Shown one piece after another: positions 12,051 through 14,526 of a DNA stretch of 64,000 nt (position 1 is the first letter of the stretch; each line of letters starts with the position of its first letter). This stretch comes from Candidatus Woesearchaeota archaeon. GTDB taxonomy: Archaea; Nanobdellota; Nanobdellia; Woesearchaeales; JABMPP01. The notes beneath the pieces are model-generated. The model saw only the letters and a list, made by a program, of their open reading frames with translations, was not told the DNA's origin and ran no database searches. A program made the position numbers and the translations under genes. The stretch lies in the NCBI GenBank assembly GCA_018303405.1, contig JAGVYD010000009.1, positions 128,856-192,855 of the forward strand, given 5' to 3'.

Positions 12051-12082
12051 TTTATATATCAATATATCAATAGATGTTGATA
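12051..12082 (+). promoter_or_regulatory. arsR promoter with inverted-repeat operator
   Basis: A TATA box (TTTATATATC, 12051-12060) is followed by a perfect inverted repeat TATCAA-(6)-TTGATA (12065-12082) that runs into the ATG at 12082. A regulator binding here would block transcription start, which fits autoregulation by the ArsR-like product (inference). Confidence 0.55.
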
Positions 12083-12342
12083 TGAAAGAAAAGCTGACCA
12101 TCTTCAGGGCGCTTGGAGAGGAAACCAAGTTTAGGATACTGAAGGCACTTATCCATGGGGAGAAATGCGCATGTGAACTACCGGAGATAATTAAGAAAAC
12201 CCAGTCAAACACATCAATGCATCTTGCAAAGCTTCAGGACTGGAGGCTGATATCCTCGAAAAGGGAGGGCAAGAAGATAATATATTCAATCAAGGACAAG
12301 AGAGTGTATGGCGCCCTCAGAATTGTCGGGATAAAAAAATGA
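12082..12342 (+). CDS. ArsR-family metal(loid)-responsive repressor
   Basis: An 86-aa winged-helix repressor: RALGEETKFRILKALIHG, a recognition-helix region SNTSMHLAKLQDWRLI and a wing KREGKKIIYSIKD. Cys29 and Cys31 (KCACELPE) sit where E. coli ArsR has its CVC arsenite/antimonite site, so thiol-based metalloid sensing is plausible. It is the first gene of a three-gene operon and overlaps the next by 4 bp (ATGA). Confidence 0.9.
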   Translation: MKEKLTIFRALGEETKFRILKALIHGEKCACELPEIIKKTQSNTSMHLAKLQDWRLISSKREGKKIIYSIKDKRVYGALRIVGIKK

Positions 12343-12575
12343 AAATAGAGATACTCGGTCCAGGATGCTCAAAATGCAAGTTTCTGGAGGAGCAAGTCCA
12401 ATTGGCCTGCAAAGAGGCAGGAGTTGAGGCAGAGATATCAAAAGTGATCGAAATTGATGAGATTGTTGCCAAAGGCGTTTTCTCAACTCCTGGGCTTATC
12501 ATAGATGGAAAATTGAAAAGTTTTGGCAGGGTGCCAGCAATGCCCGAAATCAAGAATTTTCTAAAGGGAATGTAA
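12339..12575 (+). CDS. Small redox-active disulfide protein (thioredoxin-like)
   Basis: A 78-aa thioredoxin fold of the MTH895-like 'redox-active disulfide protein 2' type. The N-terminal strand leads to the active site GPGCSKC (Cys10/Cys13), and the cis-Pro loop is STPGLIID. The ATGA overlap with the repressor shows translational coupling. Such proteins often accompany YraQ/ArsP-like permeases and may keep a metal(loid) substrate reduced or pass it to the permease (inference). Confidence 0.88.
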   Translation: MKIEILGPGCSKCKFLEEQVQLACKEAGVEAEISKVIEIDEIVAKGVFSTPGLIIDGKLKSFGRVPAMPEIKNFLKGM

Positions 12576-12588
12576 CCAGGATGGCAAT

Positions 12589-13704
12589 ATGGAAAAAAGG
12601 GAAATTATGCTAATGGCTGTGATTGCTGTTGTTTTCGGATTCTTTTATTTCCTCCCGGATAACAGTGAGTGGTTCAATTCGTCTGTGATCGCCGGGATTA
12701 ATCTGTTGGGCGATTATGCAAAACAGCACATTCTAACATGCCTTGTTCCGGCCATGTTCATTGCCGGCGCAATTGCAGTATTTTTGAAAAAAGACAAGAT
12801 TTTGAAATATTTGGGGAGGGATGCAAACAAATTTTTGTCTTACGGTGTTGCATCAGTCTCAGGTGCCATATTGGCAGTCTGCTCATGCACAATCCTTCCG
12901 CTATTTGCTGGCATCAGGAAAAGAGGCGCTGGTCTAGGGCCAGCGATAACATTTCTGTTCTCGGGTCCTGCTATAAATATTGCAGCTATTTTTCTGACGA
13001 TTGGTGTTTTGGGCACGGGCATTGGCTTTGCCAGGATCATAGGCTCCATACTAATTTCCCTAATAGTTGGGTTGGCCATGGCATGGATTTTCAGGGAGGA
13101 TGTTGAAAAGGGAGAATTCTTTTCCGGAGAGGAAGAAAAGCATAAAATTTCAAATGGAGTTATTGCTATATTTTTTGCATTGATGATTGGGTTCCTTATT
13201 GTAAATGGATTGCAAATTGGCCAATCGGCAAAATATTACATCATGGCAGCGCTGGGACTCGGCATAATTTTAATTGCTATGTTTAAATTCAATAAAGAGA
13301 TGAGGCATGATTGGCTTGGTGAAACATGGAGCTTCGCAAAGCTGATTTTGCCTTTGCTTTTTATTGGCGTGTTTGTAGCTGGATTCATAATGCCGTTGCT
13401 GCCTGAGGAAGTCATAACAAATCTCGTCGGTAAAAATTCTGTTGTGGGAAACCTTATAGCTTCAATTTTTGGAGCGTTCATGTATTTCTCCACATTAACT
13501 GAAATACCTATCGTGCAGGCTTTTATGTCAAAAGGTATGGCTGATGGGCCAGCTCTTGCATTGCTTCTGTCTGGGCCGAGCCTGAGCCTGCCCAGCATGC
13601 TGGTAATAAGGAAAATCCTGGGCACTAAGAAAACGCTGGTGTATGCTCTGCTTGTAATTTTGTCCTCAACCGCTGCCGGGCTGGCATTTGGAAACTTTAT
13701 TTGA
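12589..13704 (+). CDS. YraQ/ArsP-like permease (COG0701, DUF318)
   Basis: A 371-aa integral membrane protein with about 8-10 hydrophobic segments in two repeat halves. The family hallmark is the first-half motif AVCSCTILPLFAGIRKRGAGLGPAITFLFSGPAIN, containing a Cys-Ser-Cys; the second half has LSGPSLSLPSMLVI. Relatives include ArsP (organoarsenical efflux) and a Cu/Zn exporter. It follows the disulfide protein by 13 bp in the same operon. Substrate is likely a soft metal or metalloid (inference from ArsR). Confidence 0.88.
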   Translation: MEKREIMLMAVIAVVFGFFYFLPDNSEWFNSSVIAGINLLGDYAKQHILTCLVPAMFIAGAIAVFLKKDKILKYLGRDANKFLSYGVASVSGAILAVCSCTILPLFAGIRKRGAGLGPAITFLFSGPAINIAAIFLTIGVLGTGIGFARIIGSILISLIVGLAMAWIFREDVEKGEFFSGEEEKHKISNGVIAIFFALMIGFLIVNGLQIGQSAKYYIMAALGLGIILIAMFKFNKEMRHDWLGETWSFAKLILPLLFIGVFVAGFIMPLLPEEVITNLVGKNSVVGNLIASIFGAFMYFSTLTEIPIVQAFMSKGMADGPALALLLSGPSLSLPSMLVIRKILGTKKTLVYALLVILSSTAAGLAFGNFI

Positions 13705-13813: not shown

Positions 13814-13972
13814 TCAGATCGTCGTTAAAATCTTTTCCTTATCGTTGCTGAATTTCTTCTGGCAGGCTGAGCAGACAAGGTGCTTCTTGCCTTTCTTGTC
13901 CTTGATGAAAGTCCCGACAGGCTTTTTCAGGAATGTTTCCTGGATTTCGGTTTTGCAGATTGCGCATTTCAT
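13814..13972 (-). CDS. 52-aa zinc-ribbon protein
   Basis: A small gene with two CxxC knuckles: MKCAICKTEIQE at the start and HLVCSACQKKFS 31 residues later, joined by a Lys-rich loop. The pattern is that of a treble-clef/zinc-ribbon found in small archaeal nucleic-acid or ribosome-associated proteins. A minus-strand TATA (TATAAAATGC, about 13991-14000) lies ~24 bp before the ATG, so it is probably leaderless. It is easily missed because a longer overlapping frame (13839-14108) starts upstream. Confidence 0.75.
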   Translation of the reverse strand: MKCAICKTEIQETFLKKPVGTFIKDKKGKKHLVCSACQKKFSNDKEKILTTI

Positions 13973-14033
13973 TGCACATGATAATAAAGGGCATTTTATA
14001 AGGCTTGTGCATAAAATGAAATGGGCACAGCAG

Positions 14034-14136
14034 AATTCGCGGTCGTTGTTCCAACGACTTTATTTTTCTCCCCGCACTAACCCGAGGGGGAGAAAAATAA
14101 ACCCTCATTTAATGTAGTTAAATGAGGGCGCGAATT
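14034..14136. repeat. Perfect four-way-junction inverted-repeat element
   Basis: A 103-bp segment folds with no unpaired base between helices. The outer stem AATTCGCG/CGCGAATT (14034-14041 with 14129-14136) encloses three hairpins. Arm 1 is 7 bp (14042-14048/14052-14058, 3-nt loop). Arm 2 is 15 bp (14059-14073/14087-14101, 13-nt loop, TTTATTTTTCTCCCC). Arm 3 is 11 bp (14102-14112/14118-14128, 5-nt loop). All stems are perfect. It lies between divergently transcribed genes, so it is not a simple 3' terminator. It could be a structured RNA or a cruciform DNA element (replication or recombination site, or mobile-element remnant). No family is recognised. Confidence 0.85.
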
Positions 14137-14223
14137 TGATATATGACCATCATGGATGACACAAGTATCGTCTTGATGAATTATATGCAAAAGAATAAAA
14201 ACCCGTGCCACTGAGCAGGATGC

Positions 14224-14526
14224 ATGGACAGAAGGCAATACCAGGCAGCACAGTATATCTTCATCCTGGTATTTCTGGGATTTTTTATTTATGTTGTGTC
14301 GCGCAGGTGCGACTCAACCCTGACAGGCACGATTTTTTGCTGGCCAAAGGTTTTGGGCGTTTCAGCATGGTTCGTGTCCGCATTGGTATTGCTCAAAATA
14401 TCATATGCCAGGCTTAAAAGAGGAAGTGATGCAAAAGAAGCCTTTGTATTTTGGTTCATAAACGCCCTTATTATGGCGCTTCACATTGCCTTGTTTGTTT
14501 TCATGTTCGTGTGGAATTATATATAA
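14224..14526 (+). CDS. Three-helix membrane protein, unknown
   Basis: A 100-aa protein with three hydrophobic segments (about 9-25, 43-60 and 74-96) separated by short basic loops (SRRCD, RLKRGSDAKE). A Cys pair (Cys29, Cys39) flanks the second segment. No known family. It is divergent from the zinc-ribbon gene across the four-way-junction element; an AT-rich TTATATGC (about 14180) may be its TATA. Confidence 0.6.
   Translation: MDRRQYQAAQYIFILVFLGFFIYVVSRRCDSTLTGTIFCWPKVLGVSAWFVSALVLLKISYARLKRGSDAKEAFVFWFINALIMALHIALFVFMFVWNYI

Follow-up and report, generated by a model that had tools for sequence, protein, structure and literature searches.

A probable mobile DNA palindrome with four arms in archaea of the Woesearchaeota

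Miniature inverted-repeat elements (MITEs) are short, carry no gene, have terminal inverted repeats, are bounded by target-site duplications (7-9 bp in QMITE2), occur in multiple copies and can be folded; they are known in archaea, and MITE transcripts are known to form stable folds (PMC10969869). The interiors of ordinary MITEs are usually unrelated between families. Insertion sequences of the IS5 family, such as the IS903-like elements with a 9-bp duplication, carry their own transposase gene. REP/BIME and REPIN elements, which are mobilised by RAYT (Y1) transposases, are short palindromic DNAs thought to act as structured DNA, REP units being palindromes of 20-40 bp (PMC3733652). Integron attC sites are likewise recognised as folded DNA without strong sequence conservation, but each is a single imperfect hairpin recombined by a tyrosine integrase. 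Here we describe a palindrome in a Woesearchaeota archaeon (one of the tiny DPANN archaea) that differs from each of these in its architecture. As in MITEs, it belongs to a family of short, gene-less, multicopy and foldable sequences, several lineages of which have inverted-repeat ends and target duplications, but the interior, and not just the ends, is conserved across genera as a three-armed junction with compensatory changes. Some ends in the family resemble those of IS5-family elements in the same order (GGCTNTGTWGAAAAT, GGCTGTGNTGNAACCC) and the duplication is 9 bp, although there is no transposase gene and the interior shows no likeness to the IS ends examined. Unlike REP units, the family has members with inverted-repeat ends and 9-bp duplications, and a four-way junction, and unlike attC it has a four-way junction with no gap between helices. 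We found no description of a MITE core conserved as a zero-gap four-way junction, nor of this family, in the papers searched, which are an incomplete sample of the literature.

We analyzed a window of 64,000 nucleotides (contig JAGVYD010000009.1 of assembly GCA_018303405.1, positions 128,856 to 192,855, forward strand) from Candidatus Woesearchaeota archaeon, in which the initial annotation had pointed out a perfect inverted repeat with three hairpin arms. That observation is confirmed. All 41 base pairs are Watson-Crick and the helices abut with no unpaired base between them (Table 1). Single-strand DNA folding of positions 14000-14170 recovered exactly this structure, with z = -9.2 against 200 dinucleotide shuffles. 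An exhaustive scan for perfect gap-free four-way junctions found only this one in the 64 kb and none in 12 dinucleotide-shuffled windows, and when every helix was relaxed to 4 bp there was still one in the window and none in three shuffles. The palindrome lies in an intergenic gap between divergent small ORFs, upstream of the ribosomal L3 gene. The neighbouring minus-strand ORF, for which no informative Pfam comparison was obtained, is zinc-ribbon-like, and an ArsR-type regulator, a thioredoxin-like ORF and a permease lie in a row nearby.

Table 1. Features of the window and of related loci (unprefixed positions refer to the window; G000 is the genome of the window, other G numbers are genomes compared with it, and C numbers are their contigs).
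Location	Strand	Feature	Details
14034-14136		Complete palindrome	
14034-14041		Outer stem, left strand	AATTCGCG; 8 bp with right strand
14042-14058		Arm 1	7-bp hairpin (GTCGTTG / CAACGAC), 3-nt loop; shared by the closest G000 copies
14059-14101		Arm 2	15-bp hairpin, TTTATTTTTCTCCCC / GGGGAGAAAAATAAA, 13-nt loop ending CCGAG; the most sequence-conserved arm across the family
14102-14128		Arm 3	11-bp hairpin, CCCTCATTTAA / TTAAATGAGGG, 5-nt loop; covaries between copies
14129-14136		Outer stem, right strand	CGCGAATT
13973-14223		Intergenic gap holding the element	251 bp
13814-13972	minus	52-aa ORF	Two CxxC pairs; directly beside the element
14224-14526	plus	100-aa ORF	
14041-14073	plus	Terminator-like signal	Arm 1 followed by TTTATTTTT
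14129-14087	minus	Terminator-like signal	Arm 3 followed by TTTATTTTT
12082-13704		ArsR-type regulator, small CxxC thioredoxin-like ORF and ArsP_1-type permease	PF01022 (regulator), PF03773 (permease); next to a tRNA-Thr
G000:C11:34208-34310		Copy of the palindrome	87% identical
G000:C12:2181-2280		Copy of the palindrome	84% identical
G000:C9:11012-11120		Diverged copy	73% identical
G000:C9:23093-23186		Copy found with the full-structure model	E = 4.5e-12
G291:C7:13315 onward		Insertion with a different palindrome	
G096:C12:17221-17284 and surroundings		Copy with an enlarged arm 1	
G288:C5:104991		Copy without the three arms	

In order to establish whether the palindrome is a one-off, we searched for further copies. 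The lack of a second copy or of a covarying homologue had been put forward in advance among the grounds for dismissing it. Neither was lacking. BLAST of a 111-bp query against the window's own genome (1.6 Mb, 23 contigs) retrieved three strong copies, including that of the window, and a diverged fourth, and a full-structure model added a fifth; a genome-wide repeat census was not made. In the closest copies the structure is kept, arm 3 changing from CCCTCATTTAA to CCCTGATTTG with its partner changed to match. BLAST against 98 relatives hit only one of them, because the sequence diverges fast. A pattern search for arm 2 in GTDB genomes hit nine Woesearchaeota contigs plus five bacterial ones; the latter look like chance matches, as none folds into the four-armed structure, and the named homologues are otherwise all Woesearchaeota MAGs. 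A covariance model of arm 2 found matches in 30 of 353 genomes of the order (Woesearchaeales-type archaea), often with several copies per genome and with up to 15 matches in one. A model of the full structure matched 12 genomes among 378 drawn from the class, one of which (G571) is outside the order and weak.

We then retrieved many of these copies and examined their structure. With G.U pairs forbidden, 63 of 87 folded into a three-branch junction around arm 2, 42 of them with no unpaired junction base. Arm sizes are nearly constant, at 9-17 nt for arm 1, 42-46 nt for arm 2 and 15-19 nt for arm 3, except in the window's genome, where arm 3 is 27 nt. In an alignment of 20 diverse copies, 92.6% of cells were paired, 29 of 36 pairs had double changes, and there were 145 double-changed cells compared with 43 in shuffles and at most 30 when partners were slid. 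As the seeds were chosen from copies that fold well, the percentage paired is inflated, and the double changes and the contrast with slid partners are the stronger evidence. Of 93 distinct matches, 67 folded into three branches, again with G.U forbidden, 44 of them without any unpaired junction base, and 42 of these 44 have the same base pairs at the crossover (outer stem G-C, arm 1 G-C, arm 2 T-A, arm 3 C-G). The shape is kept by matched mutations while most of the sequence changes, which suggests that the shape itself matters at the DNA level.

Strong covariation and near-constant arm sizes could also be expected of a structured non-coding RNA gene or a cis-regulatory RNA that spread on a transposon, and a novel structured RNA was among the readings offered by the initial annotation. 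RNA helices tolerate G.U far better than A.C. However, among the non-Watson-Crick cells in the paired columns of 84 distinct copies, G.T occurred 89 times and A.C 98 times, and the isolated mismatches in the folds that forbid G.U were 11 G.T and 19 A.C. As a rough control, 15 tRNAs from the same loci showed 21 G.T in 324 bracketed pairs, although the program used brackets no A.C. Most copies also matched the structural model on the complementary strand. Rfam searches of the locus, the whole window and ten family loci returned only tRNAs. The RNA reading is therefore not supported and we consider it unlikely, although no RNA-seq data were examined; the mismatches suggest that pairing is kept as DNA rather than as RNA.

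Another possibility is that the core is a two-way transcription terminator or insulator that would stop RNA polymerase from both sides. The window copy does contain two opposed terminator-like signals, with three signals in the region against 0.4 in shuffles. However, the palindrome lies between divergent genes, where neither needs a terminator, the T-run is broken by C in many family members (for example, CTTCCTTTCCC in G301), and a terminator does not need a four-way junction with conserved crossover pairs; archaeal termination depends mainly on T-tracts. We regard this role as improbable, though it remains a rival.

Evidence for mobility came from the flanks, as copies within one genome share a longer unit with sharp ends. 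In G301, four copies of 143 bp have ends of the type GGTGCTTTCAAGTTAAG / GATAATGTCAAGTTAAG and are flanked by exact 9-bp duplications (CTGTTGGGA, CGCTAGTGG, GTCCAATAG and GAGTTTCAA). Further exact 9-bp duplications were found around units of 142-173 bp, too short for a transposase gene, in G300, G299, G297, G291, G288, G305 and G063. When joined flanks were searched against congeners, a continuous match to the G301:C1 site was found in G300:C29, 86% identical across the join and with a single CGCTAGTGG where the element sits in G301, that is, an empty site. Less similar continuous matches exist for this and another site in G301, G302 and G303. Terminal inverted repeats were recognised in three element families (f38, f82 and f64) and in G096, but not in G110 or G026. 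Around the window copy we could recognise neither a target-site duplication nor terminal inverted repeats, and among its siblings only the C12 copy has a candidate 9-bp repeat, TAAATTGCA; on the evidence of ends, duplications and empty sites the status of the window copy is thus undecided, and its membership of the family rests on the homologous core. A replication origin, telomere-like end or recombination site of an integrated plasmid or virus, at which branched palindromes also occur, is very unlikely given these dispersed copies with target duplications. The window sequence matched no phage or plasmid record, and the arm-2 pattern matched no viral contig. Roles in replication or recombination, which the initial annotation had also listed, were not tested and have no support here.

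We next looked for the mobilising enzyme. IS256 transposases, suggested by the GATAATGTC-like ends of some elements, were ruled out, as PF00872 was found in 0 of 16 element genomes with controls positive. Y1 transposases were present in only five of 16 element genomes, and 9-bp duplications are not expected for Y1 transposition; one Y1 transposase is present in the window's genome. DDE_Tnp_1 (PF01609) transposases were present in half of 16 element genomes, and three that we examined belong to the IS5 family by NCBIfam and Pfam (NF033579 over cut-off for two of the three). Some of these IS have 9- or 10-bp duplications and ends GGCTCTGTTGAAAATCT, GTGCTGTAGAAAATCT or GGCTTTGCGTGGAAATT, resembling element ends in G319, G063 and G096. 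In G096 the IS end GGCTGTGCTGAAACCCT is similar but not identical to the element end GGCTGTGGTGCAATCCT (14 of 17 bases), and the IS ends GGCTCTGTTGAAAATCT and GTGCTGTAGAAAATCT, in G299/G304, are like the G319 element end GGCTCTGTAGAAAATGT. However, no IS5-type ends were visible in G110, G026 or G000, no IS5-type or PF01609 transposase was found in G000, and genomes with the element are not enriched for IS5_2 transposases (11 of 30, compared with 108 of 323 without it), although draft assemblies lose repeats. Pattern searches for an autonomous IS with TCAAGTTAAG or TATTGAAAACC ends found no full-length IS, and no matching transposase was found for the TCAAGTTAAG type. An apparent IS link in G305:C19 turned out to be a truncated element beside a transposase fragment. 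The likeness of ends leaves descent from an autonomous IS5 element undecided, and we treat the IS5 link as likely for some lineages and open for others.

Variant copies bear on what the core does. The G288:C5 copy has both terminal repeats and a 9-bp flanking repeat but lacks the three arms, only the outer stem remaining; if it transposed in that form, the arms are not needed for movement, although they may have been lost afterwards. The G291:C7 insertion has the same terminal repeat (TATTGAAAACC) as the G291 elements and a 9-bp flanking repeat (GACTTTCAG/AACTTTCAG, one mismatch), but contains a different, larger multi-branched palindrome, so branched palindromes may be a general feature of these elements. 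In the G096:C12 copy, arm 1 carries at its tip an extra branched palindrome of about 80 bp compared with the G096:C9 copy, as if a palindrome had been inserted into a hairpin loop, and a copy in G299:C48 shows a partial tandem duplication of the left half of the element (TTGTGAAATCCTCGGGTTGCCACGGTTAAGC...). These last two are signs of template-switch activity and, together with the Watson-Crick, strand-symmetric pairing, are compatible with palindromes being kept by mutation rather than selection, template switching or hairpin-mediated correction during replication copying one arm onto the other. Correction alone does not, however, predict that arm sizes, the zero-gap junction and the crossover base pairs are constant across distant genera, and we think this explanation unlikely, though it remains a rival.

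Taken together, we are fairly confident that the palindrome is one copy of a family of small, MITE-like non-autonomous transposable elements of Woesearchaeales archaea, each built around a DNA four-way junction. The initial annotation's interpretation is thus supported in part, in that a DNA structure linked to transposition fits the evidence whereas a structured RNA does not. Our analyses demonstrate directly that the family is dispersed and multicopy, that complete members in several lineages have terminal inverted repeats and 9-bp target duplications, that an unoccupied target exists in a congener, that pairing is kept by compensatory change and that mismatches show no G.T preference. It is by inference that we propose that some lineages are, or were, mobilised in trans by IS5-family DDE transposases, and that the junction is kept because it acts as DNA, most likely by extruding as a cruciform or folding on a single strand and being bound at the crossover by a transposase or host junction-binding protein. 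The window copy is probably an old, immobile relic whose core is still perfect. No function of the core was identified. A more far-reaching and only tentative possibility is that the junction is itself the recognised substrate, a transposase or host junction-binding protein reading the conserved crossover base pairs of the extruded or folded core, so that the element would spread or protect itself by presenting a built-in Holliday-junction-like structure.

The family appears to be a mobile-element family not previously described in the papers searched, in a poorly known group of archaea. Cruciform function in vivo is hard to show, and these elements provide dozens of natural variants that can be tested with resolvases, transposases and single-molecule extrusion. 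A natural element that keeps a perfect four-way junction through deep divergence, with Watson-Crick-only compensation and fixed crossover base pairs, is direct evolutionary evidence for selection on a non-B DNA structure, or for a strong palindrome-correcting process.
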